Assembly (NCBI RefSeq): GCF_036865545.1
Contig: NZ_CP142208.1
Location: 2,976,001-3,040,000 of the forward strand
DNA: 64,000 bases
Source of the DNA: Erwinia sp. E_sp_B01_1
GTDB taxonomy: Bacteria; Pseudomonadota; Gammaproteobacteria; Enterobacterales; Enterobacteriaceae
Direction: 5' to 3'
Of the stretch, positions 31,186-47,272 are shown piece after piece. Within the stretch, counting starts at the first letter, position 1. Every line of letters starts with the position of its first letter. Below the pieces are notes generated by a model. It was not told the DNA's origin, made no database searches, and saw nothing but the letters and a program-made list of their open reading frames with translations. Both the position numbers and the translations under genes were made by a program.

Positions 31186-32417
31186 TTAATTAACCTCAGC
31201 AAGATTGACGCCGGTTGCATTTGGAAGGCAGAGCGCCGCAAGAATACCAACACAATAAGAAGTAATTGCCAGACTTCCCATTGCATAGCCCAGATGAATG
31301 TGGCTTGATAAGATACCTACCAGTGCCGGCATTAACGAGCCAAATCCGCGTCCAAAGCTGGCACAAAAACCTGCGCCGTTACCTCTGATATGGGTGGGAT
31401 ATAATTCTGAAAAAGCAGGTGTTAAACCGGAGGCCAGTCCGCCTTGTAATGCGCCGAGGAAAAAGCCCAGAACCAGGGTAATATCCATACTGACGTTTGC
31501 AAACATATACACGCTTACAACAATCATCTGACAAAGCAGGAAAAATATGACTGTCTTCCACCTGCCAAACTTATCACTTAACCTGCCATAAATGAAGGGT
31601 CCCAGAAGAGAGCCTAAAATGTTTATTGCTAAATATCCAGACATGGAAACTACTGGTAACCCCAGTTCCATACGCAAATAGGTGGGGAGCCAGGTTATCA
31701 TTATATAAGCCCCTCCAAATATACCGCCAGATAAAATGGTTGCCGTTACAGTAATGCGCCGATGCTTCCCCTGAAATATTTCCGTGATTTTATTAGGTTT
31801 TTTACTTTGAGAGGTTGATGAGAAAACGGGTGATTCAGGGACTAAACGACGAATGAACCATACCAAAATGGCCGGAATTATACCAATAAGGAAAAAAAGC
31901 TTCCAGGCAAGCTCTTGTGGGAAAAAGTTAAGTAACACCGGCAATACGCCCAATGAAATAGCGTAGCCAAGTGCGTATCCGCTTTGAATTGATGCACCAA
32001 CGCGACCACGATAACTTGCACGAATTACTTCACTGATCAAGACACCGCCAACGACGACTTCACCACCATAACCGAGCCCCTGTAAGAAGCGCACAATAAG
32101 AAACTGCCAAAAATCTCCGCAGAGTGCGGTTAAACCGGTAAAACAGGCTACCCATAATACAGTTAACTGCATAACGCGTATGCGTCCCCAGCGGTCGGCC
32201 AGCATCCCAGCGCTCCAGCCGCCCAGAGCGCTTCCGATTAATGAAGCCGACCCCAAAATTCCAGCCTCAGATTTAGTCAGTATTGCCATACTGAGTAAAA
32301 TCGGCATGACCAATGAATAAATTGTGCTGTCCATCGAGTCCAGGGTAAACCCTCCCAGACATGCCCACCAGGTTTTTTCTCTTTTGGAGTGAGCTCACTG
32401 TACCATCCGATTTTCAT
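31186..32417 (-). pseudogene. MFS transporter (sialate/aromatic-acid type), frameshift near the N-terminus
   Basis: The long frame (to 32334) gives 382 residues of an MFS permease: DSTIYSLVMPILLSMAILTK, GGWSAGMLADRWGRIRVMQL, RFLQGLGYGGEVVVGGVLIS. The first helix is incomplete. Upstream, ATG at 32417 starts MKIGWYSELTPKEKK in another frame. Adding one A to the run of six at 32373-32378 joins it as KTWWACLGGFTLDSMDSTIY, a normal N-terminus. The intact protein would be 410 residues. It lies upstream of the ring-cleavage cluster and may import its substrate. Confidence 0.8.
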
Positions 32418-33132
32418 TTTTCACCTGTTGTTAGCTACAAAATATTCGCCCCCTGTTCAGAGCGCGCTGTTTTAATATTATTAAAAATAAAATTATATTA
32501 TAAGCAGTATGACTAACAGAGCTTTAGCGTTATTTTGTGATCTCTATCTCGTAGGGATTATAATTAATTTAATTCGATTATTTTTCGGATAAATGTTTAT
32601 TTAAATCCAATCAATAATATTTATAGAGCTATGATTTCTATTTATAGGAATTTTTATCATACGTTGAATTATTGCTTGCATCTTAAACTTCACCGGATGG
32701 AGTTCGAGTTTCCTGATATTATTTTTAAGACGGATTCAATTTACAGGGGCCTGTCCTGGGTTGCAGGAGTCAGTAAGGGGACGGGCTGAAAACGTATTTT
32801 TACTTACACCGGGAATTATGCTGGCATCCCTGCTATTCAAAGCGTCAGGATCCAAAGAAGAAACGCTATTGATAACGGAGACGGTCAGTCCATATTGCAC
32901 GCCGTTACGACCAGAAGAGGCTTGGCAGAGAAGCCAGGCAAGCTGCTACACGTTCAGCCTGCCGGAAGGATATAACTGATAGCAGAGATGATTCATAGTC
33001 AGAATTTAACGTAAAGCCTTACGGGGCTATTCTGCCTGTCCGGTGAGAGTACGGGTTGGAAATCTTAAAATCACGCAGCGAGCAGGAAAGACTTTTTATT
33101 TGCCATCCAACAGCAGTTGACACAGGTAGAGA
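32418..33132. other. Intergenic region of about 715 bp, no supported gene
   Basis: The left part is AT-rich and probably holds the promoter of the MFS gene. A TTG-initiated 72-codon frame at 32761-32979 has neither a ribosome site nor family features. Nothing else is recognised. Confidence 0.5.
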
Positions 33133-34113
33133 TCATTTTTCCAGATCCTTTGGTACCGGCGGCGTGCCATGCGTATGGAAGGTATCGATGGTCTTCAATC
33201 CCCAGGCTTGTCCTTTTTTTCGCTCGGTTTCTGTCCATACTATGGTCTGCCAGTCCGGGGCGAGAATCAGGCGAGCACCTGAGTTGGCTAATTCCACCCG
33301 GTTGCCCGCAGGTTCCCAGACATACAGAAAAAATGTCCCCTGAATAGCATGTTTATGCGGCCCGGTTTCGATGTGTACGCCATTTTCTAAAAAAATATCT
33401 GCTGCGCGCAATATGTCCTCACGAGTATCTGTTGCATAGGTCACGTGATGCAGACGTCCTTTTCCTCCACCCTGCTCTTCCGTACATGCCAGGTCGTAAG
33501 TTTTATTGTTGATGGTAAACCAGCAGCCACCTATACGGCCATTATCAAGCTCTATCATTTCGGTAACTCGCGAGCCCAGACAGGTTTCCATAAATTGTTT
33601 GAACTCACGCACGTCTGCTGCCAGCAGGTTAAGGTGATCGAGACGGCGGGGAGAAGCACCACGGCCGTGATAGCGCTGAGCCAGATTTTTCAACGATGGA
33701 CGTTCGCCTGCTTCAGCCTGATAGCGGACGGTATCATAATAGATCTCAAATATATGGCCAAAAGGGTCAGCAAAGCGGAAAGCACGACCCTGCCCCTGTT
33801 CCTCTTTCACCCAGCCAATGACTTCATATTTGCTGGCCTCAATCACAGCCACACGTCGCATTAGCGCCGCTTCTGAGCTGGCGCGATAAGCAATGTGGCC
33901 CACACCAGTCGTGTGATGACGCGTTAACTTCAGGGTATGAAATTCATAGTCATCCCAGGCGCGCAACCAGGCATGATTTTCATCCTGCTCCGAGACTGTC
34001 AGACCATATACATTAACGAAGAAAAAAAGACTCTCCTCAAATTTATCAGTATAAAGCTCAACATGTGCTAAATGTGCAATATCATGGCAGGGTTCTGATG
34101 AATGATTTGTCAT
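33133..34113 (-). CDS. Type-I extradiol (catechol 2,3-dioxygenase-like) ring-cleavage dioxygenase
   Basis: 326 residues, two VOC modules. The N-terminal module starts HLAHVELYTDKFEESLFFFV; the C-terminal one carries the iron ligands H160 (LDHLNLL), H222 or H223 (LHHVTYATD) and E274 (NRVELANSG). This is the 2-His-1-carboxylate set of type-I extradiol dioxygenases, which open catecholic rings next to the diol. It is the last gene of a run with GalB/C/D-like enzymes, so it probably supplies their substrate. The aromatic substrate is not known; the usual gallate dioxygenase GalA belongs to an unrelated (LigAB-type) family. Confidence 0.85.
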   Translation of the reverse strand: MTNHSSEPCHDIAHLAHVELYTDKFEESLFFFVNVYGLTVSEQDENHAWLRAWDDYEFHTLKLTRHHTTGVGHIAYRASSEAALMRRVAVIEASKYEVIGWVKEEQGQGRAFRFADPFGHIFEIYYDTVRYQAEAGERPSLKNLAQRYHGRGASPRRLDHLNLLAADVREFKQFMETCLGSRVTEMIELDNGRIGGCWFTINNKTYDLACTEEQGGGKGRLHHVTYATDTREDILRAADIFLENGVHIETGPHKHAIQGTFFLYVWEPAGNRVELANSGARLILAPDWQTIVWTETERKKGQAWGLKTIDTFHTHGTPPVPKDLEK

Positions 34114-34401
34114 GCATACCTCCTTAGTGGTTTAAGCGGCCGGTTTTTATTCATAATCTCTGAGATAAGTTATCCGCCTTACGCCTGTCAGGTCAGATGG
34201 TTTTAGTTCTGAAGTCATGAGTTTTTTTATACTGTGACATTGGTAACGCCCCGGAATGAGCAAAGATCGGCAGCGATGGATTTGTAGTAAAATATTGCCT
34301 GAAAGATCACCGAATTAAATAGCAAAGGTTTTCTATCTCATTTTCAGACAAAAGAGTGACGATGACACCTGTTGGCTGAATTAATTACTCAGGAAAGATG
34401 T

Positions 34402-35283
34402 TTAACCAGTCTGGTTAAGCTGATCTACCGCCTTCTGCCAGTCGAACGAGGTTGAATCGCTGTAAGACACACCCACTTTCGCCATTCTTGCCGGTAATGC
34501 TGCCTGTACCTGCTGTATTGCCTGGCTCATCAGTGCGGCGACACCCACATCCTGCAAAGTTTTAACCACTTCGCTCATCTCTTCAGCGCGTCTGATGCCG
34601 TGTTCAGCAACACGACTGATAAGATAATGCGGCAGCCGATCGTTCCATCCAAGTGACGGGAAACTGGTATGCAATGAAGCCAAAACGGCCTCTTCCACAC
34701 CGTATTGCCGTGCCGCGCTGAGACATTCAGTGGTTAATGCTTCCAGACCTTTAATCATCACGCTGCGGCACATCTTAATCGCAGACACATCACCAACACG
34801 CTCACTGGTTGCCCTTGCGTTGCATCCCAGCGCAATTAAGATGTCCGCAACACGATTTGCTGATGGCCCGCCAATCAGCAGCGGCGTGGCAAGGCGCTCA
34901 GGAGGCACCGGCGCCATTACCGCAACATCCAGATAATGCCCGGCACCCGCGGTTACCGCTTTAGCAGCGGCGCGCTTGGTGTCAGGCGAAACGGAATTGA
35001 AGTCGAGAAAAGTCTGACCGGTATACAACAGCGGCGCAGCCTGCACAGCTACGTCGAGCGCGCTGCCCGCTGTCACCAGCGATAACACTAAATCTGCGCC
35101 ATCCAGCGCATCAGCCAGAGAACTGGCTGTTTGTATACCCGCTTCAACTGCCAGCGCCTGTAAAGAGTCAGTTTGCAGGCCGGGAAACTTTTTATCCCAG
35201 ACACGCACATCCGCTGCTCCCGCCATATCCTGCGCATAAATCTTTCCGGCCTCACCGAAACCTACAACCGCAATACGTACCAT
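34402..35283 (-). CDS. NAD(P)-dependent dehydrogenase, 6PGDH-like with DUF1932 C-terminal domain
   Basis: 293 residues. The N-terminal Rossmann fold begins VRIAVVGFGEAGKIYAQDMA. The segment LDFNSVSPDTKRAAAKAV and the C-terminal helical domain with SAIKMCRSVMIKGLEALTTE match DUF1932 / phosphogluconate-dehydrogenase-like enzymes. It presumably oxidises a hydroxy acid or aldehyde in the aromatic pathway. The ATG at 35283 with AAGGAG is preferred; the frame upstream reaches 35340. It follows galD by 10 bp and is probably cotranscribed. Confidence 0.82.
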   Translation of the reverse strand: MVRIAVVGFGEAGKIYAQDMAGAADVRVWDKKFPGLQTDSLQALAVEAGIQTASSLADALDGADLVLSLVTAGSALDVAVQAAPLLYTGQTFLDFNSVSPDTKRAAAKAVTAGAGHYLDVAVMAPVPPERLATPLLIGGPSANRVADILIALGCNARATSERVGDVSAIKMCRSVMIKGLEALTTECLSAARQYGVEEAVLASLHTSFPSLGWNDRLPHYLISRVAEHGIRRAEEMSEVVKTLQDVGVAALMSQAIQQVQAALPARMAKVGVSYSDSTSFDWQKAVDQLNQTG

Positions 35284-35293
35284 TCTGCTCTCC

Positions 35294-36376
35294 TTAACTG
35301 CCTGACCACACTGAACCCGGAACAGCAACCCGACCTTCAAACAGCAGACGTGCGGTACGAATCAATCCGCTGTTGATGACGTTACCCGTCGCATCGCGTG
35401 TCAGCATCACGCTAAACTCGCCGGTGGGATGTTCCACCGCCAGCCGCTGCTCACCAGCCTCGCTGACATTTGCCACTCCTTGTGTCACTGAACCGGGGAT
35501 GAGACAGGCGGTTGCCACACTCACAGCGCCTAATACGCCAATGGATGCATGGCAGCGGTGTGGGATAAAGGTGCGGGTGGTCAGCGTCCCGCCCTGGGTT
35601 GGGGCAGCAATCAGGGTCATTTTTGGCACCGTGCGTTGCGTCACATCGCCCAGATTCATGCGTGGGCCAGCCTGCAAGCGGATGGCTTCCAGGCGCGCTT
35701 TCAATTCGTGGTCATTATCCAGCTGCTCGCGTGTTTCCAGCCCGCTGCGCTGCAAATCGGCTGCCCGTATCAGCACCACCGGCATGCCATTATCAATACA
35801 GGTAACCTCAATACCCTCAAAGCGGTCGCGTGCGTTGCCCGTCGGCAGTAAGGCACCACAGCTGGAACCGGCGATATCTTCAAAATTCAGTATCTGTTCT
35901 GCTGCGAAACCCGGCACGCCGTCAATGTGTGCGTCACCTTCATACTCTATCGCACCGTCAGGCGTGGCGATTTGTGCTTCGGCGATTTGCCCGGTGTTTA
36001 CCATAAAAATACGCACCAGCGTGACCGCGCCCTGCACCTTTACCAGCTCTTTTTCAATGGCGAAAGGTCCGACGGCGGCCAGGATGTTGCCGCAGTTTTG
36101 CCCGTAATCCACCACGGCTTCAGTGACGTTAACCTGCGCAAACAGGTAATCCACATCCGCGTCCGGGCGCGTTGAGGGGGAGATAATCGCAACTTTGCTG
36201 GTCAGTGGGTCGGCCCCACCAATCCCGTCAATCTGACGTGCGTCAGGCGACCCCATCACTGCCAGCAGCACGCGGTCGCGAGTGGCGTTATCTTGTGGCA
36301 GATCCGCCGCCAGAAAACAGGCGGCTTTGGAGGTGCCGCCACGCATTAAGACGCAGGGGAGAAAGGTCTGTTTCAT
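35294..36376 (-). CDS. galD: 4-oxalomesaconate tautomerase (PrpF/GalD family)
   Basis: 360 residues, PrpF-fold isomerase. It has LPCVLMRGGTSKAACFLAAD at the start, VVDYGQNCGNILAAVGPFAI (conserved cysteine), SSCGALLPTGNARD, and PHRCHASIGVLGAVSVATAC. In the gallate pathway GalD converts the keto form of 4-oxalomesaconate to the enol used by the hydratase. 2-Methylaconitate isomerases are close relatives, but flanking GalC- and GalB-like genes favour GalD. It ends 10 bp before the DUF1932 gene. Confidence 0.82.
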   Translation of the reverse strand: MKQTFLPCVLMRGGTSKAACFLAADLPQDNATRDRVLLAVMGSPDARQIDGIGGADPLTSKVAIISPSTRPDADVDYLFAQVNVTEAVVDYGQNCGNILAAVGPFAIEKELVKVQGAVTLVRIFMVNTGQIAEAQIATPDGAIEYEGDAHIDGVPGFAAEQILNFEDIAGSSCGALLPTGNARDRFEGIEVTCIDNGMPVVLIRAADLQRSGLETREQLDNDHELKARLEAIRLQAGPRMNLGDVTQRTVPKMTLIAAPTQGGTLTTRTFIPHRCHASIGVLGAVSVATACLIPGSVTQGVANVSEAGEQRLAVEHPTGEFSVMLTRDATGNVINSGLIRTARLLFEGRVAVPGSVWSGS

Positions 36377-36378
36377 CG

Positions 36379-37095
36379 TCAGCTATTCTTCAGCTCATCC
36401 AGGGAATCAACGTAGCGCAGCCCTTTTTCAGCTAAGGTGGGCCGCATCTGATAAATATCCAGCCCCAGCTCTCCCGCTGCGAGTCGCTGGCGTTTACCTT
36501 CCTCAGCATCAACGCGTTTTTTTGCAGCAGCATCCACGGTGGTGGCCTGTTCACGAGGCACAATGACCACACCATCATCATCGGCTACCACGATGTCGCC
36601 CGGATTGACCAGCTGACCGGCACAGATCACCGGAACATTAACAGAACCCAGGGTCTCTTTTACCGTTCCCTGCGCATAGACAGCTCGTGACCAGACGGGG
36701 AAGTGCATCTCGCGCAACGTCTGGCTGTCGCGTATACCAATGTCGCCCACGAGGCCCACTACGCCACGCGCTTTCAGTGATGTCGCTAACAGGTCACCAA
36801 AAAAGCCGTCGTGACAGTCAGACGTCATCGCCACCAGCAACACATCACCCGGCTGGCATTGTTCTACCGCCACGTGAAACATCCAGTTATCACCCGGCGA
36901 TACCAGCACGGTTACTGCGCTGCCCGCGACAGCGCATTTCTGCTGAATCGGACGCACGCGAACATCAAGCAGGCCTGTACGTCCCTGTGCTTCATGCGTG
37001 GTCGCCACGCCGTAACCCGCAAACCCTGTGACCAGACCGGGTTCGGCACGCTCAATGTTTCGCACGACAACGCCTTTCTTATTCAGCAGACTCAT
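36379..37095 (-). CDS. galC: 4-carboxy-4-hydroxy-2-oxoadipate aldolase (RraA-fold, GalC/LigK-like)
   Basis: 238 residues, RraA/HMG-CHA aldolase family. [20 protein letters not shown], then [16 protein letters not shown] with the Arg/Asp active-site pair, then [20 protein letters not shown]. GalC cleaves CHA to pyruvate and oxaloacetate. Its start overlaps the galB stop by 4 bp, so the two are translationally coupled. A pure RraA ribonuclease inhibitor would be shorter and would not lie in this context. Confidence 0.85.
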
Positions 37096-37832
37096 GACAA
37101 ATCCTCCGTCACGCGCGGGAACAGGCTCTGATAACCTTCGCCATGGCTGATAACTTTTGGTGAAGCGATGCCCACGTTACGTTTGGCCTGAACACCACGC
37201 TGCAAAGCGACGCGCGTATAGTATTCCCACAGGTGCTCCTGCCCAGCCATGCACTGTATTGCCGCGTATTTCTTATCCCATACCGGGGTGATATCCAGAA
37301 GGACGTCCGGCTTCCAGTTGCACTGCTCGGGCTGGTGTGGTTCAAAACAATAAACCGGCGGCGCACCGATGATGGTTTCACCGGGACGATAACCTTCAGC
37401 CTGCGCGATGATACGTGCTTCCTGCGTCAGATTAGCGGCCAGCGGATGGTCATAGTTATAGGGATCGTTCACCGAATGGGTCAAAACGAAGTGTGGCTGT
37501 ACCCGACGGAACACGTCAGCAAGGCGAAACAGCGTCTCTTTGTCTGAGCGAAGCGGATAGTCACCCATATCGAAGAACTCAATGCTGGCTCCGAGGATTT
37601 TGGCCGCAGCTTCGGCCTCACCCTGTCGGTTTTGCTTCACGATAGTTTCGGTCATGTTACCTTTGCGCCACAGCTTTGCTGATTCACCTCGTTCGCCGTA
37701 GGAGAGACAGACCACATGCACGTCATATCCTCGTGAGGTATGCAACGCAATCGCGCCGCCCGCACGCCAGACAAAATCAGCGGAGTGTGCACTGACCACT
37801 AAAGCGCTCTTTTTAGCTATCTTTTCCATCAT
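37092..37832 (-). CDS. galB: 4-oxalomesaconate hydratase (PIG-L/LmbE-fold, GalB-like)
   Basis: 246 residues, PIG-L fold. It starts [20 protein letters not shown], where H16-S-A-D19 occupies the usual H-P-D-D zinc site. [20 protein letters not shown] and [20 protein letters not shown] complete the family pattern. In P. putida the hydratase of the gallate pathway is of this type rather than an amidohydrolase. It is the first gene of the operon galB-galC-galD-dehydrogenase-dioxygenase, divergent from the LysR-type regulator. Confidence 0.82.
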
Positions 37833-37914
37833 CTCATCCTGCGTTTTGCTGTTTTTTTCATCCTGGCATGCTGTTTAACGCACGGATAATGCCTTTCATT
37901 GCGTGAGCTATGAC

Positions 37915-37936
37915 TTTTATTTATGTTGGGATAAAA
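37915..37936. promoter_or_regulatory. Candidate LysR-type binding site in the divergent promoter
   Basis: TTTTAT-N10-ATAAAA lies 22 bp before the regulator start in the 126-bp divergent region. It has the dyad symmetry expected of an LTTR recognition site, but the AT-rich sequence makes chance likely. Confidence 0.35.
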
Positions 37937-37958
37937 CCTTTAAACTTTTTACGACGAC

Positions 37959-39185
37959 ATGAAAATAAACCCGCAAGAATTTCAATTAAAAATCATGCAA
38001 ATACGAGCATTCTGTATGATTGCAGATCGTGGCACCGTGTCAGAAGCCGCCAACAAATTGTTTCGCACTCAGTCGGCAATCACCCGTTCAATCCGTGATC
38101 TTGAACACACTTTAGCCACGCCGCTGTTCGAACGTCACGCGAGCGGCATGATGCTGACGGAAATGGGAAAATGTGTTTTGCCACGTGCCCGCCGCGCTAT
38201 CCAGGAGCTGCAGCTGATCCCCTCATTGCTCAGCAAACTCAAACAGCGCGACAACGGACGTGAAGAGGCTGAACCTGTCTGGTTATTTAACCTGCGACGT
38301 CTGCAAATTTTCCTGGCGCTGCACCGGCTTCATCACACGCAAAGCGTGGCGACTTCACTGGGTATCAGCCAGCCTGCTGTCAGCGCAGCGTTAAAGGTGC
38401 TGGAAAAGGGAGCAGGATTGACGCTGTTCCAACGCACGCCAAAAGGCATGATGCCAACGCCCGCCGGGCGGGAAATAGCACCTTTCATTAGTCGCGCACT
38501 GAATGAGATCCGGCATATTCCTGAAGAGCTTGCGGCGCAGCAGGGCGTGCTAACCGGCACTGTGCACGTGGGAGCCCTGCCCCTGTGCCGAAGCAGTTTA
38601 CTGCCTCGTGCCATTGCTCACCTGGTGACGCGTTATCCCGGTATCAAAGTAGTAACCAATGAAAGCGCCTTTAGCGCGCTGGTGACAGAGTTAAGGGCGG
38701 GTGATATTGATTTCATTCTCGGCGCTTTGCGGCAGAACGACACGGTGACGGATATCCATAACCAGTTTTTATTCGATGAAGAACTTATTTTAGTGGCGCG
38801 CCCTGAGCATCCGCTTACCGGACGGTTGCTTACGCCAGACGAGCTGGCCCTGACGCAGTGGATCCTCCCCCGTGATAACACTCCGGCACGCCATTTATTA
38901 GATCGCGCATTTCAGGCATCAGGCATGCCCGCCCCACAACCTTTAGTGGAAAGTGGGGATCTGGCGATAGTGCGTGGGCTGCTGCTGCATTCAGATATGG
39001 TCGCGGCCGTCTCTTCGCATCAGCTTGAATATGAGTTACGTGCCGGGATTCTGACGTCGCTGACGTTCGATCTGCCTGATACGTGTCGTGAGATTGGTTT
39101 AACTTTCCGTCGGGGGGCGCTGCATTCACCTGCGGCAAAAGCGTTATTGAGCTGTATCGATGAGGCGCAGACTCACTCCGTCTAA
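37959..39185 (+). CDS. LysR family regulator with two tandem HTH domains
   Basis: 408 residues, about 100 longer than a normal LysR protein. Residues about 13-85 form one LysR HTH (MQIRAFCMIADRGTVSEAAN, then SAITRSIRDLEHTLATPLFE). Residues about 108-183 form a second (NLRRLQIFLALHRLHHTQSV, then SQPAVSAALKVLEKGAGLTL). An effector domain follows. It is divergent from the galBCD-like operon and upstream of the MFS permease, so it likely controls both, in the role of P. putida GalR. Whether both HTHs bind DNA is unknown. Confidence 0.85.
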   Translation: MKINPQEFQLKIMQIRAFCMIADRGTVSEAANKLFRTQSAITRSIRDLEHTLATPLFERHASGMMLTEMGKCVLPRARRAIQELQLIPSLLSKLKQRDNGREEAEPVWLFNLRRLQIFLALHRLHHTQSVATSLGISQPAVSAALKVLEKGAGLTLFQRTPKGMMPTPAGREIAPFISRALNEIRHIPEELAAQQGVLTGTVHVGALPLCRSSLLPRAIAHLVTRYPGIKVVTNESAFSALVTELRAGDIDFILGALRQNDTVTDIHNQFLFDEELILVARPEHPLTGRLLTPDELALTQWILPRDNTPARHLLDRAFQASGMPAPQPLVESGDLAIVRGLLLHSDMVAAVSSHQLEYELRAGILTSLTFDLPDTCREIGLTFRRGALHSPAAKALLSCIDEAQTHSV

Positions 39186-39216
39186 AATAAAATCATATAA
39201 GAACATAATATTTACA

Positions 39217-39257
39217 GCGTCAGAACTGCATATTTAAGGCCTCTGACGCCATTTTTA
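39217..39257 (+). terminator. Intrinsic terminator after the LysR gene
   Basis: Perfect arms GCGTCAGA/TCTGACGC followed by CATTTTTAA. It separates the regulator from the MFS gene. Confidence 0.65.
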
Positions 39258-39424
39258 ACTTCTAAAGACAATGTTAAATTCGTCACAATATAAACCCAAC
39301 TCATACCTCTAAAAGCCTTTTTTGACAGACAGGGTTGTTTCCCCCGCTTAACGTGTTACCAGATTGTTACCTTTCTCATATCCACCCCCAACTGCCGCAG
39401 ACAGCAGAGAAGAGAGTGTACCCG

Positions 39425-40795
39425 ATGACAGCAAATAACCTGGTTAACGTGAAAGCGTGGATAGATGCGCGACCCATCTCATCTTTTCAGTGGCGCCTGC
39501 TGGTGCTGTGCCTGATTATCATTATGTTTGACGGCTATGATGCCGCCGTGATGGGCTTTATTGCGCCGGCCCTGATTGAACACTGGGGCATCAGCCGTGC
39601 AGCGATGGGCTCCATTCTGGGTGCGGCGATGTTTGGTGTGGCGCTGGGTGCGCTGATCGCCGGACCGCTGTCCGATCGTTATGGCCGCAAGCGAATCATT
39701 TTACTGGCAGTGCTGATCTTTGCCGCGTTCAGCCTTGCCTGTGCGTTTGCTACTACGCCAGTACAGATGATGGTGCTGCGCTTTATAGCCGGATTAGGAT
39801 TAGGCGCGGTGATGCCAAACTGCGTAACCTTACTGTCTGAATATATGCCTGAACGCCGTAAAGGCGTCATGATTACCCTGATGTTCAGTGGCTTCAATAT
39901 TGGTTCGGGACTGGGAGGATTTATTGCCGCAGGGTTGCTGACACAGTATAGCTGGCCCGCGGTACTGATTTTTGGCGGTGCGGTACCACTTTTGATGTTG
40001 CCGGTTATAGCCTGGTTGTTACCAGAATCGGCCCTTAATCTGGTGATACGTAAAGCACCACGTGCTCAGATAGCCGCATTGCTCAATCGTATGGGGGGAA
40101 GTTTTGGCAGTGATAATGCCTTCATTCTTGATTCTCCCCGCGTCAAACGTCACAACACCATTTCGGAGCTGTTTCGTCATGGCTTTGCACGCGGCACCAT
40201 CATTCTCTGGATGACCTATTTTATGGGTCTTTTTGTGATTTATCTGCTGAACGGCTGGCTGCCCACCATTATGCGGTCAGGTGGCATTTCGCTGGAGCAA
40301 GCTGCCATTATTGCCGGCCTGTTTCAGCTGGGCGGTCCGCTGGGGGGTATCATCGTCGGCACACTGATGGATAAGCTACGCGCTAAATGGGTAATCGGCG
40401 TAGTTTATTTTATCGGTTCTGTCTGTTTGATTATCCAGGGCCTGTTTAGCCTGAGTGGCGTGGCGCTGGGGATTATTATTTTTATCACTGGTATGTGTAT
40501 TAATGGCGCGCAGAATGGCCTTCAGGTCTACTCTCCGGCTTTTTACCCCACAGAGATCCGCGCCACTGGCGTGAGCTGGATGCACGGTATTGGACGCATC
40601 GGCGCCATCCTGAGTTCATCATTGGGTGGCGTGTTGATGGGCGCCTTTCCGGGACAGTCAGCCATATTCTTCATTCTTGCACTGCCAGCACTGCTTGCCG
40701 CATTCAGCATTGTTTTACATCGGAATATTCGTCTTAATATGAAAATCAAAGGCGCAGGCCTCAGTGAGCATGTTCCTGAAGTACAAGCGCAGTGA
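39425..40795 (+). CDS. Aromatic acid:H+ symporter (AAHS) MFS permease
   Basis: 456 residues and 12 membrane helices. The family start is LVLCLIIIMFDGYDAAVMGF followed by IAPALIEHWGISRAAMG (the DGYD motif of aromatic acid transporters). Also present are GPLSDRYGRKR and LRFIAGLGLGAVMPNCVTLL. It probably imports the aromatic substrate of the adjacent cluster, as GalT or PcaK do. The ATG at 39425 is chosen; the frame extends to 39335 without a better start. Confidence 0.9.
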   Translation: MTANNLVNVKAWIDARPISSFQWRLLVLCLIIIMFDGYDAAVMGFIAPALIEHWGISRAAMGSILGAAMFGVALGALIAGPLSDRYGRKRIILLAVLIFAAFSLACAFATTPVQMMVLRFIAGLGLGAVMPNCVTLLSEYMPERRKGVMITLMFSGFNIGSGLGGFIAAGLLTQYSWPAVLIFGGAVPLLMLPVIAWLLPESALNLVIRKAPRAQIAALLNRMGGSFGSDNAFILDSPRVKRHNTISELFRHGFARGTIILWMTYFMGLFVIYLLNGWLPTIMRSGGISLEQAAIIAGLFQLGGPLGGIIVGTLMDKLRAKWVIGVVYFIGSVCLIIQGLFSLSGVALGIIIFITGMCINGAQNGLQVYSPAFYPTEIRATGVSWMHGIGRIGAILSSSLGGVLMGAFPGQSAIFFILALPALLAAFSIVLHRNIRLNMKIKGAGLSEHVPEVQAQ

Positions 40796-41383: not shown

Positions 41384-41868
41384 GAAGTGAGTAAATGAAA
41401 TTTAAATTTCAATATACTGAAAGACTACATTGTTGTGAATATGTTTTTTTCAGAAATTTAGAGAAAAATCAGTACCATATCCTACATTTTTTTGCAAAAA
41501 GACCTAAAAATCAAGAACGTATGTTTCATATAATTTAATTTTGGAATTATTTCCCCTACAGACGTTGGAGGAGGATGAATGAGACTCAAAGTGCAGACTT
41601 TCTCATAGCATGTAAGAACAAGAGTCAGCACCCTGCAGGGGCATCAGAATGGATAAAGTCTCATTCGTTATAATCTGAAATGCATGGTGTAATGCTGCAC
41701 CGATGCAGTTTCTGAAAGGTTCTCCAGGGAAATAATTACATTAGTATTTCTCTGGCAATCGGGCCGCTAAGCCGATACTTTCACTTGTTACGGGCTGAAA
41801 CCGGCGGAATAGGTTCAAACATCCTGCCTGAAAATCAGCCAGATTGTTTTGTTACGTGGGTTATAAAA
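41384..41868. other. Intergenic region upstream of the LacI regulator
   Basis: About 485 bp, AT-rich at the left. It should hold the promoters of the two divergent genes. No operator, repeat or gene is convincing; a small palindrome CCCTGCAGGG lies near 41632. Confidence 0.45.
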
Positions 41869-42879
41869 ATGGAAGAAAAATCAAACAGTAAAAAGGCGAC
41901 CGCGAATGAAGTTGCTGAACTTGCGGGCGTCTCGAAATATACCGTTTTGCGTGCCTTTAAAGAGGGGGCTTCGATTTCACCTCATGCCCGCGAAGCAGTA
42001 ATGGCAGCGGCTGATAAGTTAGGATTTAGCCCAAACCTGTTAGCCCGTAGTTTAAAAAATAAGAAAACTAAACTGATTGCAGTTCTGGTTGATGAGTTCC
42101 AAAATCCACATACCTTGATGGTGCTGGACGAAGTCAGTAAGCAGTTGGGTGCGCGGGGCTATATGACCATATTACTTAATGTCAGCTCTGACGATAAATA
42201 CATATCCGTATTAAAGATGGCTGGACAGATGCAGGTCGATGGCATGATATTCGCCGCGACCATCTTACGTGATGAGCTGATTGTTACAGCAAAAGAAATT
42301 TATCACGTGCCTTCATTCCATATTTGTCGTAGCACCGAAAATCCAGACGTGAATGTTGTAAATATAGATGGTTTCAATGCTTCTAAAGCGCTTGGAAATT
42401 TACTTATACGGCAGGGTTATAAAAAATACGCTTATATGAAAGGTCATGATACACCTTCGTCACAGTTAATGCGTATACAGGGATATGAGGAAAGCCTGAA
42501 AGCAATCGGTCAGAATATAAGTAAACTCTTTATTGCGGGACATTATGACCGTGAGCGATCCTATACTTTGATAATGGATTATTTACAACAAACACCTCAA
42601 AGTGAAAGGGTTGATGCTTTGTTTTGTGAAAATGATGTTCTGGCTATAGGCGCCATTCAGGCTGTAAGAGACTTCGGTCAGGGTGCGCATATGGGAATAG
42701 TAGGCTTTGATGATATTAATGAAGCGCGCACAACCACCTGGCAATTGACAACATGGTCGCAACGGGCTGATTTACAGATTACTGAGGCCATCAATCGTCT
42801 TTTAGACGGTATTGCCGATGAAAGCGGTAGTTGGCGAACCGGTGAAATAAAGATCCGAAAATCGCATCTGAAGCCCTGA
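41869..42879 (+). CDS. LacI family transcriptional regulator (likely controls GADH operon 1)
   Basis: 336 residues. The N-terminal HTH and hinge are ATANEVAELAGVSKYTVLRA and NLLARSLKNKKT. The C-terminal domain is a periplasmic-binding-protein fold (IAVLVDEFQNPHTLMVLDEV, FCENDVLAIGAIQAV, GIVGFDDINEARTTTWQLTT). The ATG at 41869 directly precedes the HTH; the frame to 41785 is not needed. Twin LacI-type palindromes lie between this gene and the dehydrogenase operon downstream, so it probably represses that operon in response to gluconate or ketogluconate. Confidence 0.88.
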   Translation: MEEKSNSKKATANEVAELAGVSKYTVLRAFKEGASISPHAREAVMAAADKLGFSPNLLARSLKNKKTKLIAVLVDEFQNPHTLMVLDEVSKQLGARGYMTILLNVSSDDKYISVLKMAGQMQVDGMIFAATILRDELIVTAKEIYHVPSFHICRSTENPDVNVVNIDGFNASKALGNLLIRQGYKKYAYMKGHDTPSSQLMRIQGYEESLKAIGQNISKLFIAGHYDRERSYTLIMDYLQQTPQSERVDALFCENDVLAIGAIQAVRDFGQGAHMGIVGFDDINEARTTTWQLTTWSQRADLQITEAINRLLDGIADESGSWRTGEIKIRKSHLKP

Positions 42880-43422
42880 TATGTTAGCTATTATTTCAAA
42901 TGTAAACATCATGTAAAATATTGGGCAAACCAGCAGTGTTTGCTCACATAATGCCCTTCCATACACCACAAGCCACAACCTCATTAATACATACTCATCG
43001 TAAATAGCACTTTTTGATAACCCCTATCGCCCTCTTGCAAATTTTTATACATCATTGTTTTATATACAAAAAGTCACTTAACCTCGCTTTCTGTTTTGTA
43101 AATTTTTCTTTGCCATCGATGGCAAATTGCAGTTGCCATCGATGGCAAAAGTACACATAATCGCAACATTGTGGGGTTAAAGCCTGGTTCCCGGGAGTGG
43201 AAATCTGTCCTGCAGCAATGTTTAGTTTTGATTTGTTGATAACAATCGGCAGAGCTACGAGATGAACATAGTTGTCAGGTACAGGTAAAAACAATCAGTT
43301 TGATTAATTTAACCAGCCTGATTCTACTGTAAGGCAGTTATTATTCTAATTAAAACTGTAAGTCTTAAGCTGGATTTTATTACTGTTAAGAATGGTAAGT
43401 TTGAGTTTTATTGGAGCATCAT
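42880..43422. other. Intergenic control region of GADH operon 1
   Basis: About 540 bp between the LacI gene and the dehydrogenase operon. It contains the paired operators at 43109-43148 and AT-rich sequence that must include the operon promoter. The start region of the gamma-subunit gene has TTGGAGC as ribosome site. Confidence 0.55.
43109..43148. promoter_or_regulatory. Two tandem perfect palindromes TTGCCATCGATGGCAA (LacI-type operators)
   Basis: An 18-bp palindrome at 43109-43126 and its 16-bp copy at 43133-43148, with centres 23 bp apart. Even-length palindromes with a central CG are the standard LacI-family operator form. They lie about 275 bp upstream of the GADH gamma-subunit start and downstream of a LacI gene. 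Confidence 0.8.
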
Positions 43423-44157
43423 GTGAAAAGAAGAAGTTTTATTCAGGCAGGGTTAGTTTTAGCAAGTACCGGTACAGCTGCCTCAATATTCAAACCTGCA
43501 GGAGCCGCTGAGAGAGTTTTTAAGGGTGGCGAATTATGGCGTGCCAAAGCAACTCAGCCTCCAACGCCTGCAGATCCCACCAAAAGGTACTTTTTCACGG
43601 AGCAGGAAGAAGCATTAGTTAAAGCTATCTTTGACAGACTCATTCCCGCTGATGAATTAAGTATTGGTGCATCAGATGCGGGCTGTGTTGTGTTTATTGA
43701 TAATCAACTCGCCGGTCCTTACGGGGAGGCCAGTTGGCGTTATAAAGGGGGTCCGTATGAGCAGGGAACGGAATCACAAGGGAATCAAAGTCCATTAACG
43801 CCTCGCGAAATTTATCGTAAAGGGCTTTCAGAGATGGATATTCACTGTACAAAAGCGTTTGGGAAGTCCTTCGTCGTTTTATCCGATGATGATAAAGACA
43901 ACTATCTCGAACAGATGGAAGCGTCCAAATACACCTATCCGGGCTTTACGTCTTCAAATGCGCTTTTTGGCCAGTTCCTTTCCAATGTGATGGAAGGTTT
44001 CCTGGCCGATCCAATATATGGTGGCAACCGCAATATGGTCGGCTGGAAAATGATTGGTTTTCCGGGCGCACGGTATGACTACCGTGATGTAGCCAAGCTT
44101 AAAGGACAAAAAATCTCCCTTGAGCCGATCAGCATTATTGAACATTTGAAAGCATAA
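43423..44157 (+). CDS. Gluconate 2-dehydrogenase gamma (small) subunit, copy 1
   Basis: 244 residues. A twin-arginine signal (KRRSFIQAGLVLASTGTAAS) directs export of the folded complex. The rest matches the gluconate 2-dehydrogenase subunit 3 family: FIDNQLAGPYGEASWRYKGG, then SNVMEGFLADPIYGGNRNMV and GWKMIGFPGARYDYRD. It forms a periplasmic membrane-bound complex with the FAD subunit and cytochrome c subunit that follow, oxidising D-gluconate to 2-ketogluconate (other polyols possible). The GTG at 43423 is preferred over a TTG at 43411. Confidence 0.9.
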   Translation: MKRRSFIQAGLVLASTGTAASIFKPAGAAERVFKGGELWRAKATQPPTPADPTKRYFFTEQEEALVKAIFDRLIPADELSIGASDAGCVVFIDNQLAGPYGEASWRYKGGPYEQGTESQGNQSPLTPREIYRKGLSEMDIHCTKAFGKSFVVLSDDDKDNYLEQMEASKYTYPGFTSSNALFGQFLSNVMEGFLADPIYGGNRNMVGWKMIGFPGARYDYRDVAKLKGQKISLEPISIIEHLKA

Positions 44158-44176
44158 TAAGACGTAAGGAATACCA

Positions 44177-45948
44177 ATGAATTACACCAGACCTAAGGCT
44201 GACGCAGTTATTGTCGGCCTCGGATGGGCCGGTTCTCTGATGGCTGAAGAACTTACCCGTGCAGGACTTAATGTTGTCGTTATCGAACGCGGCGCATGGG
44301 AACAGACCCAAACCAACTTTTCGCCAGCCATTGCTGCAGATGAATTGCGCTATGGCGTCCGTCGGGAAATCCTGAAGCCGCCACGAATTGAAGCCCTCAC
44401 TTTCCGGAACTCATCCGATCAAAAAGCCCTGCCCGCGCGTGACCAGAATATTTTCATGATGGGCAACAGTGTTGGTGGCGCAGGCAAGCACTGGGCAGCC
44501 AACGCCTGGCGCTTCAATCCATCTGATTTTGAGATGGAAACCCGTCTGCGCGAGCGTTATCACAATATGAAACTGGCCGATGGTCTGATCGTTCAGGATT
44601 GGGGGGTCACCTATGATGAACTTGAGCCATTTTACGACCGCGTAGAAAAAATCGCCGGGATTTCCGGTAAAGCGGGCGTGATTAACGGCGTCAAACAGCA
44701 GGGGGAAATCCTTTTGAGGGCAACCGCACCAGCGAATACCCAACACCACCTTTGATCCGATCGCACTGGAATGATATCTACCACAAAGTCACTGAAAAAA
44801 TGGGCTACCACCCGTTTCCGATCCCTGGTGGAACAATCGGTGCCGCTTATACCAATCCATTAGGCGTTAATCTCGCACCCTGCACCTATTGTGGCTTTTG
44901 TGGGTTATATGGTTGCGGTAACTGGTCAAAGTCTTCACCTAATGCCTGCGTCATCCCTGCGCTCATGGATCGTAATAATCTTACAATGCTTACGGAATGT
45001 ACCGTATTACGGGTCAATAAAGCGGATGATGGTAAAACGGTCACCGGCGTGACCTTCCTGGATTCTGATGGCAATACCGGTTTCCAGCCCGCGGGCATCG
45101 TGTGTGTGTCAGCTTATCAACTGGACAATGTAAGACTGCTATTGTTATCAGAAATTGGTACAGCTTACGATCCTGCAACAGGTAAAGGCACGCTTGGTCG
45201 CGCTTATAATTATCAGACCATGATTAACGCATTCCTCTATTTTGAAAACGAACAGATGAATCCGTATATCTCTACCGGCGCGTTATCAACACAAATTGAT
45301 GATTATAATGGGGACAACTTCGATCACACCGGACTTGGTTTCCTGGGTGGGGCAGGCATTCAGGCACTGTCTGATCAGGGTACACCTCTGAGTCTGGCAG
45401 ATCGCGTACCGCCAGGCACCAAACTATGGGGTTCGAAATGGAAAAAAGCCTACCAGCAAAGTTATCAGAACTTTGGCAAAATTCAGGGACAGGGTACTTC
45501 ATACTCGCACCGTGATTCATATCTTTCACTGGATCCGAATTACAAAGATGCTAATGGACAGCCGCTGATGCGGATGACGTTTGATTACAATGAAAACGAT
45601 AAGCGTATGGCCAATTTTATTCGCGATCGTATGGAAGAGATTTGTAAAAATTCGGGTGCCAAATCCTGGGAAATTGTTTCTATTCCGGACAAACATAATT
45701 CGCCATATACCCCTTACGACAGCTCGCACACCATAGGTGGTGCGGTGATGGGTCTGGATCCCAAAACCTCAGTCCTTAACCGTTACCAGCAGCATTGGGA
45801 TGCACATAACCTGTTTGTACTTGGGGCCTCTTCGTTCCCTAATAATGCAGGCTATAACCCAACCATTACGTTAAGTGCGCTCACTTTATGGACGGCACAT
45901 GCCATCGTAAATGAATACCTGAAAAATCCGGGTTCACTGGTGGGGTAA
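44177..45948 (+). pseudogene. Gluconate 2-dehydrogenase FAD subunit, copy 1, one frameshift as read
   Basis: Two overlapping frames (44177-44755 and 44752-45948) make one GMC-type flavoprotein of about 590 residues. VIVGLGWAGSLMAEELTRAG is the FAD motif; NSVGGAGKHWAANAWRF and CTYCGFCGLYGCG follow; FVLGASSFPNNAGYNPT is near the end. The break is at five G near 44711; six G give the frame NPFEGNRTSEYPTPP, which aligns with copy 2 (NPFEGNRSHEYPLPP). The other operon genes are intact, so a base-calling error is plausible. It oxidises gluconate and passes electrons to the cytochrome subunit. Confidence 0.85.
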
Positions 45949-45958
45949 GGAGAAAAAA

Positions 45959-47272
45959 ATGGCGAATAAATTAAGACGTGGTGCGCTTGGCGTGGTGTAT
46001 ATCGCAGTGCTGGGTGCCCTCGGTTATACCGCACTGGTGAAATATGACGAACACAAAAGCTATCCACAGACCCTGAAGCCTGAAACGGGGGCGGCATTGC
46101 CTGAGCAGATCAAGCGAGGCGAGTATGTCGCCCGCCTATCAGACTGTACCGCTTGTCATACCGCACAGGGTGGCAAACCTTTCGCCGGCGGTTACCGGCT
46201 GGAAACACCCTTTGGTAGCATATTCTCATCGAACATTACCCCGGATAAAGAAACCGGTATAGGCAACTGGACGCAAGAGCAATTTGACCGTGCGGTGCGT
46301 CATGGTATTGGCTCGCATGGACATATGTATGCGGCAATGCCCTATAACGCTTATGCAAAACTTACCGATCAAGATCTGACCGACCTCTGGGCGTACGTCC
46401 GGACTATTCCCGCAGTGAAAAACAGCGTCGTTGAGAATCAATTACCTTTTCCGTTTAACCAGCGCTGGACGCTTGCTGGGTGGAATCTGCTCTTTTTCAA
46501 AGACCAGATATTTAAACCGACAACCAGCAACAGTGATGAGATTAATCGTGGCCAGTATCTGGTTGAGGGCCCCGGGCATTGTGCTTCGTGCCATACTGCC
46601 AAAAACTTTCTTGGTGGTGACAGTTCAGCCTATCTGCAGGGTGGTCAGTTAGAGGGATGGCACGCACCCGACCTCACGCAGAATCCGCACACAGGACTCG
46701 GTTCATGGAGTAAAGATGATGTGGTCACCTATCTGCGTACCGGAACCAACAGGATGGGGGCCGCGTCAGGGCCTATGTCAGAGGCAGTTGAAAACTCAAC
46801 GCAATACATGTCAGCTTCCGATCTTCAAGCAATAGCAAGCTATCTGCATACATTGCCCGCCTCCCCTGTAACAAAACCTTCGCCGGTGAGCGCCAGGGAC
46901 AATGCAATGATCGTCGGGAAGAAAGTCTTTGAATCTCAGTGTCAGGCTTGTCACGTTTCAGATGGATCGGGGATCCGTAATATGATCCCAACACTCGCGA
47001 ACAATCCGCAAATCAATGCGGACGATACCTCGAGTTTGCTGAACGTGGTGTTAAAAGGCAGCCAGGGACCATTTACCCATGCGAACCCTACTTCTGCAGG
47101 TATGCCTGATTTTGCCTGGAAGCTGTCAGACGATAACATCGCGGATGTGATGACCTATATCCGTAACAGTTGGGGGAATGCCGCACCGCCTGTCAGCGCA
47201 GATACGGTGACACAAGCGCGAAAAGAACTGAAGGCCAAACCCTGGATGGGAGAGGCCAGGGATAAGCAGTAA
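45959..47272 (+). CDS. Gluconate 2-dehydrogenase cytochrome c subunit, copy 1
   Basis: 437 residues with an N-terminal membrane helix (GVVYIAVLGALGYTALV) and three heme-binding CxxCH motifs: CTACH (63-67), CASCH (208-212) and CQACH (328-332). This is the triheme subunit that anchors the complex to the periplasmic face of the inner membrane and transfers electrons to ubiquinone. It starts 10 bp after the flavoprotein subunit. A strong hairpin follows the stop. Confidence 0.93.
   Translation: MANKLRRGALGVVYIAVLGALGYTALVKYDEHKSYPQTLKPETGAALPEQIKRGEYVARLSDCTACHTAQGGKPFAGGYRLETPFGSIFSSNITPDKETGIGNWTQEQFDRAVRHGIGSHGHMYAAMPYNAYAKLTDQDLTDLWAYVRTIPAVKNSVVENQLPFPFNQRWTLAGWNLLFFKDQIFKPTTSNSDEINRGQYLVEGPGHCASCHTAKNFLGGDSSAYLQGGQLEGWHAPDLTQNPHTGLGSWSKDDVVTYLRTGTNRMGAASGPMSEAVENSTQYMSASDLQAIASYLHTLPASPVTKPSPVSARDNAMIVGKKVFESQCQACHVSDGSGIRNMIPTLANNPQINADDTSSLLNVVLKGSQGPFTHANPTSAGMPDFAWKLSDDNIADVMTYIRNSWGNAAPPVSADTVTQARKELKAKPWMGEARDKQ

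Follow-up and report, generated by a model that had tools for sequence, protein, structure and literature searches.

Gallic acid is a common building block of plant tannins, and in the established pathway for its degradation it is converted directly to 4-oxalomesaconate, from which the enzymes GalD, GalB and GalC proceed. A 64,000-nucleotide stretch of the genome of Erwinia sp. E_sp_B01_1 (referred to as the window; the genome itself is a single contig of 4.80 Mb) carries genes for all three of these enzymes, and the question that it raises is which enzyme opens the aromatic ring. Ring cleavage in Pseudomonas putida KT2440 is assigned to GalA in the available part of PMC9942251, whereas in the window the candidate is a protein of the VOC fold. 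Sequence comparison makes it quite probable that the locus serves the aerobic catabolism of gallate and that the LigB-family GalA is replaced in it by a type I extradiol dioxygenase with two VOC domains.

A gallate-type cluster without GalA

All of the genes named in an earlier reading of this sequence (the original prediction) are present where it had placed them (Table 1). The minus strand carries galB, galC, galD and a gene for a DUF1932 dehydrogenase in that order, and the contiguity and coupling claimed for the three gal genes are borne out, with a 4-bp overlap between galB and galC, a 2-bp gap between galC and galD and products of the expected families; a further 10 bp separate galD from the DUF1932 gene. 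The VOC gene lies 3' of this operon and is not coupled to it, 288 bp separating it from the DUF1932 stop codon. A scan reports no terminator-like site on the minus strand of this gap, so read-through from the operon into the VOC gene is possible, and the VOC gene has a strong ribosome-binding sequence of its own, AAGGAGGT, directly 5' of the ATG. The lysR and permease genes are transcribed in the opposite direction, on the plus strand. The regulator belongs to the LysR type, as originally described, whereas the permease, which had been called an AAHS protein, has the AAHS and PcaK models as its nearest matches but remains below the cut-offs of both.

The lower pathway from 4-oxalomesaconate is complete, in that GalD and GalC score above their equivalog cut-offs and GalB is a PIG-L-type protein whose Pantoea piersonii orthologue (91% identical) carries the annotation galB. 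The gal cluster of P. putida KT2440, as far as the available text of PMC9942251 describes it, likewise comprises galB, galC and galD with a LysR gene divergent from galB and an MFS permease. What is missing from the Erwinia genome is GalA, which consists of LigB and LigA. A search of the 4.80 Mb returned a single LigB match (80.4 bits, in a frame of 274 amino acids) and no LigA match, so the absence of a LigAB-type GalA from the locus, as originally predicted, extends to the rest of the genome, where such a gene was looked for and not found. As a positive control, the 436-amino-acid protein encoded beside the permease gene in Klebsiella (L022) has both LigB and LigA and matches PDB 3wku, deposited as ‘Gallate dioxygenase’, with 547.8 bits. 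The VOC protein contains neither domain according to Pfam and thus falls outside the GalA class, although the same reaction is proposed for both. These results support the view that the VOC enzyme stands in place of GalA. A single tannase match in the genome (19.2 bits) was below cut-off and was not counted.

The VOC enzyme

The VOC protein matches PF00903 in two stretches and is formed of two VOC modules, the second of which holds the His/His/Glu iron ligands, as befits the type I (VOC) extradiol class. The claim that these ligands are intact holds, since the aligned counterparts of H160, H223 and E274 in homoprotocatechuate 2,3-dioxygenase (HPCD; PDB 1f1x and 1q0c), which is also a two-domain VOC protein, are H155, H214 and E267. 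The two proteins differ in the second sphere. His200 of HPCD, the second-sphere histidine of the type I class, acts in catalysis and its variants can shift the cleavage site, while Arg243 and Arg293 bind the carboxylate; the corresponding residues in the window protein are Tyr206, Thr250 and Gly301. The positions of Asn157, Trp192, His248 and Tyr257 are kept. Tyr206 is present in all aligned relatives of at least 60% identity, with histidine found in one relative at 45% and two at 28–29%; Thr250 is replaced by Ser in one genome and Gly301 by Ala in another. The tyrosine may reflect adaptation to a substrate that bears three hydroxyl groups next to one another.

The best solved match of the VOC protein (342 bits) is PDB 9wgj, deposited as ‘Catechol 1,2-dioxygenase’, which shares the Tyr at the His200 position and the Gly at the Arg293 position but has Leu at the Arg243 position; no paper naming 9WGJ was found in the open-access literature. 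The gene is under purifying selection, with a ratio of non-synonymous to synonymous substitution rates (dN/dS) of 0.02–0.03 in five of ten pairs with relatives, in which dS is near saturation; in the other five dS is saturated. A scan of viral contigs found no relatives of the VOC protein.

The best NCBIfam matches are the equivalogs for catechol 2,3-dioxygenase (TIGR03211, 284.9 bits against a cut-off of 320.2) and HpaD (TIGR02295, 195.1 against 321.4), neither of which reaches its cut-off. Together with the 288-bp gap and with homologues of family f48 that lie away from gal genes, they would suit a catechol or homoprotocatechuate dioxygenase with no part in the pathway, whose gene came by chance to lie near an orphaned gal operon. 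This is very improbable in view of the Thr and Gly at the positions of Arg243 and Arg293, and of the near-exclusive distribution, the operon position in alphaproteobacteria and the shared operator described below.

Distribution of GalA and the VOC enzyme

The combination of galBCD with a DUF1932 gene is widespread in Enterobacterales, as seen from the best 80 of 240 loci returned by a scan for DUF1932 relatives. For 44 genomes with the operon, GalA was counted as a LigB match in a frame of about 420–450 amino acids and the VOC enzyme as a match of at least 400 bits. On this basis 11 have the VOC enzyme only (among them Pantoea brenneri, L007, with the VOC gene in two pieces), 30 have GalA only, one has both and two have neither. 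A LigB-only frame of 270 amino acids in L053 (118 bits) was not counted as GalA.

Because the DUF1932 query biases this set, a separate sample of 295 genomes of the family was used, with thresholds of more than 500 bits for galD, more than 100 bits against LigA for GalA and E-values up to 1e-40 for the VOC enzyme; galD matches of 413 bits or less were dropped as presumed paralogues, as was a 27-bit partial LigA match in G012. Twenty-four genomes have galD at this level, 19 of them with GalA and three with the VOC enzyme, namely the Erwinia genome itself and G286, both lacking GalA, and G115, which has it. None of the 271 genomes outside this galD set has the VOC enzyme. In a sample of the phylum, the VOC enzyme is found at E 1e-80 or better in 20 of 398 genomes (that of the window included), and all eight other genomes with at least 68% identity to it have galD, in seven cases on the same contig and no more than about 9 kb away.

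Related bacteria thus seem to swap GalA and the VOC enzyme for each other. At least six changes between the two states are required on the best galBCD tree, which is a quick tree with 18 of 60 inner branches weak; 24 loci lacking a full-length open reading frame (ORF) for one of the three genes were left out of it, and L114 and L115 were set aside as copies of L002 and L005. Fisher's test over 49 rows (12 VOC, 31 GalA, two both, four neither) gives a p of 1.5e-6, a value that ignores kinship; when kinship is respected the anti-association is no more than suggestive.

Gene order in relatives and on plasmids

The comparison of gene order across genomes, proposed at the outset as a check, also favours replacement of GalA by the VOC enzyme within the gallate pathway. 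The VOC gene directly follows the permease gene in L006, L008 and L009, the same place that galA holds in L002, L005 and L035. L002 is Mixta theicola, the nearest galBCD relative of the window (92% identical), in which GalA follows the permease and a tannase gene comes after the DUF1932 gene, where the window has the VOC gene. A tannase-like gene, split into two ORFs, is also present in the VOC-type cluster L003.

Eight of the 70 plasmid records found were read. In alphaproteobacteria the order galB-VOC-galC-galD occurs on plasmids of Agrobacterium vitis, two Rhizobium strains and Thioclava, in each case divergent from the DUF1932 and lysR genes (with transporter genes between them in A. vitis); the genomes L148 and L149 have the same order, and galC-galD precede the VOC gene in A. 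tumefaciens H25/79. The VOC gene of Pantoea At-9b and that of Chimaeribacter arupi DSM 115072 stand on plasmids, and the 19 kb examined of each contain no gal gene, a search that for At-9b did not extend to galBCD elsewhere in the strain. The C. arupi genome of L026 lacks galA, which its congeners L020 and L021 possess.

In Erwinia sp. JUb26 (L017) the VOC-type cluster includes VanAB-like demethylase genes, as might be expected if the main substrate of the VOC enzyme were a different trihydroxy acid or a methoxylated one, for instance 3-O-methylgallate, and gallate a minor one. Such demethylases could simply feed gallate, however, and the tannase gene points to gallate, as does the start of the GalD, GalB and GalC steps at its direct product, so that this alternative is improbable, slightly more so than the protocatechuate route considered below.

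A shared GalR-like operator

A 24-bp motif was trained on 31 galB upstream regions from genomes with GalA and without the VOC enzyme, and was then scanned over the collected loci and the window, 2.03 Mb in all, a total that includes the training loci and some stretches in duplicate. Of 107 sites of at least 20 bits, 105 lie beside the lysR/galB, permease or VOC genes, and a first-order Markov control gave no site of even 14 bits in 5.8 Mb. The operator learned from GalA genomes recurs 5' of the VOC gene in ten loci, 103–125 bp upstream. These are L003, L010, L011, L017 and L107, together with five loci that have no gal gene in the 18–19 kb examined (L101, L106, L112, L117 and L118). A pattern search of the Erwinia genome with up to two mismatches gave three matches, the galB and permease sites being exact and one elsewhere having two mismatches; the reversed pattern gave one.

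The LysR protein presumably binds this motif. In P. putida, GalR responds to 4-oxalomesaconate and its predicted site contains AACGCAT, according to the available text of PMC9942251; the same heptamer is present in many of the operator copies found here. The regulator of the window is, at 408 amino acids, longer than usual, and LysR ORFs of about 400 amino acids or more are found in most of the related loci too.

Several findings weigh against the replacement of GalA by the VOC enzyme. Both enzymes occur together in Rouxiella badensis (L038) and in G115, which groups with it, while neither is found in L004, where the cluster is decayed, in L053, or in three of the 24 galD genomes of the family sample (G040, G022 and G004); a strict exclusivity of the two enzymes is therefore rejected. 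The pair test that takes account of kinship gives the anti-association a median p of 0.125, which is not significant. At 61–63% VOC identity (family f48) only two of ten genomes have a galD match, three of five inspected f48 loci lack gal genes near the VOC gene (the other two have galB-like genes nearby), and a LigA domain is present in two of the 19 other VOC genomes of the phylum sample. As f48 is mostly not linked to gal genes and LigA appears in these two genomes, the outer VOC clade may do something else. With regard to regulation, the alphaproteobacterial loci L102–L105 and L108 have no operator site of even 8 bits, and none is found at the VOC gene of L063. The copy in front of the window's own VOC gene (about 34213–34237) is degenerate and below threshold, its spacer lacking one base by comparison with relatives, and the VOC upstream region scores −2.7 bits. 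Finally, an AlphaFold2 model of the VOC protein built from nine sequences reached a predicted local distance difference test score (pLDDT) of 48.5 and a predicted template-modelling score (pTM) of 0.43 and supports no claim.

The DUF1932 dehydrogenase

The original prediction treated the DUF1932 dehydrogenase as part of what was new in the pathway. That view is rejected because GalA-type clusters (e.g. L002, L005, L014–L016 and L022) carry the gene just as VOC-type ones do, and hence it is not special to the VOC variant. No DUF1932 gene was found by tblastn in the stretches around galBCD in L109, L113 and L116, and the available text of PMC9942251 names none in the P. putida gal operon, which differs in this respect from that of the window. 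In Pseudomonas L039 and L044 it is paired with a dicarboxylate carrier gene. The enzyme is an accessory of the pathway and, at a guess, may convert a hydroxy acid to an oxo acid and back, both being relatives of the pathway intermediates.

A more specific role would follow if the substrate were protocatechuate. The VOC enzyme would then cleave at the 4,5 position, the semialdehyde would be oxidised by the DUF1932 protein, and the resulting 2-pyrone-4,6-dicarboxylate would be turned by a LigI-type hydrolase into the 4-oxalomesaconate used by GalDBC. The relationship of DUF1932 to dehydrogenases fits such a scheme, as does the joint presence of a LigI-like amidohydrolase and DUF1932 in some GalA-type relatives. 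Moreover, the Erwinia genome has no match to an intradiol dioxygenase, so protocatechuate would need another route. Nevertheless, this alternative is unlikely. No LigI-like gene is found among the ORFs of the window, to which the LigI search in this genome was confined, nor in the VOC-type loci of Enterobacterales (distant Amidohydro_2 genes in some alphaproteobacterial or other VOC loci qualify this absence), and DUF1932 also stands beside GalA and was not found beside galBCD in the three loci mentioned above.

Proposed pathway and regulation

Most likely the VOC enzyme takes the place of GalA without being homologous to it. We infer its substrate, product and regiochemistry, along with the binding and effector of the regulator, as follows. 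The permease would import gallate, and the VOC enzyme would cleave its ring at the C4–C5 bond, yielding 4-oxalomesaconate, which GalD, GalB and GalC would then convert to pyruvate and oxaloacetate. The GalR-like LysR regulator would drive galB, the permease gene and perhaps the second MFS gene, as well as the VOC gene in relatives, with 4-oxalomesaconate as the probable effector, as reported for P. putida in the available text of PMC9942251.

We also incline, somewhat less firmly, to a wider reading in which Tyr at the position of His200 is the mark of a whole VOC subfamily that evolved independently as a second class of gallate dioxygenase, spreads among alpha- and gammaproteobacteria, partly on plasmids, and repeatedly displaces GalA under the same GalR-type control. 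In the available text of the AromaDeg description (PMC4250580) gallate dioxygenases are placed in the LigB superfamily, and the list of VOC extradiol substrates given there (‘among others’) does not include gallate by name. No description of a VOC gallate dioxygenase was found in the open-access literature, a search outside whose scope most subscription papers and bioRxiv preprints lie. The idea of an undescribed meta-cleavage pathway is supported as regards the exchange of GalA for a VOC enzyme, which comparative genomics favours, and falls as regards DUF1932. If correct, the exchange would represent a clean case of non-homologous displacement within a pathway for plant polyphenols. It would allow annotation pipelines to recognise as gallate degraders organisms that at present appear to have no galA (‘VOC family protein’), and it would provide a type I enzyme with a naturally altered second-sphere residue in which to ask what His200 does.

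Features of the cluster and neighbouring genes

Table 1. Features of the gal locus, in window coordinates
Feature	Position	Strand	Details
Second MFS transporter	31186..32334	-	
Weaker GalR-like operator 5' of second MFS gene	32627..32650	-	13.8 bits
VOC-fold (type I) extradiol dioxygenase, proposed gallate dioxygenase	33133..34113	-	326 aa; ligands H160, H223, E274; Tyr206 at His200 position
DUF1932/VOC intergenic gap with degenerate GalR-like operator copy	34114..34401	-	288 bp
DUF1932 NAD(P)-binding dehydrogenase	34402..35283	-	related to 6-phosphogluconate (6PGDH) and 3-hydroxyisobutyrate dehydrogenases
galD, 4-oxalomesaconate tautomerase	35294..36376	-	NF033377 547.8 bits (cut-off 440)
galC, 4-carboxy-4-hydroxy-2-oxoadipate aldolase	36379..37095	-	NF006731 394.7 bits (cut-off 179)
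galB, PIG-L-type 4-oxalomesaconate hydratase	37092..37832	-	PF02585
GalR-like operator between lysR and galB	37906..37929	-	33.6 bits; exact pattern match
LysR-type regulator, GalR-like by position	37959..39185	+	408 aa; two HTH_1 stretches
GalR-like operator 5' of permease gene	39285..39308	+	22.1 bits; exact pattern match
AAHS-like aromatic acid/H+ symporter	39335..40795	+	TIGR00895 396.4 bits (cut-off 418.6); PcaK model 422.3 (cut-off 770)

The DUF1932 gene probably starts at the ATG at 35283 rather than at the listed TTG at 35340, and the starts of orthologues suggest that the true start of the permease gene is near 39425. The second MFS gene adjoins the VOC gene in L010 and L011 and shares a string of genes with it in L003 and L009. 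In the window (31186–32420, minus strand) its opening codons are out of frame with the remainder when compared with the 410-amino-acid protein of L010; the difference may be a sequencing error, since a run of A coincides with it or is close by (near 32380–32400), as is also the case for the difference in the VOC operator.

In L017 and L107, genes for a beta-propeller lactonase and a porin-like protein are divergent from the VOC gene and upstream of it, the lactonase being identified by Pfam in L017 and by the record annotation in L107, and the porin of L017 by position and size alone. L004 is Mixta mediterraneensis, in whose decayed cluster galD is split into two ORFs and the LysR ORF has 159 amino acids, with a LigB remnant of 72 amino acids on another contig. 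L110 and L111 have galBCD-DUF1932 with a strong operator, in a genome with neither GalA nor the VOC enzyme; their neighbours are genes for a LigI-like amidohydrolase and a dicarboxylate carrier-like protein, with an FAA hydrolase as well in L110, and perhaps form a route that imports a ring-opened acid. Further along the window, at 41785–47272, a LacI-type regulator gene is followed by GMC oxidoreductase-like and cytochrome c-like genes, and similar sets lie near some other gal clusters (L023 and L105).

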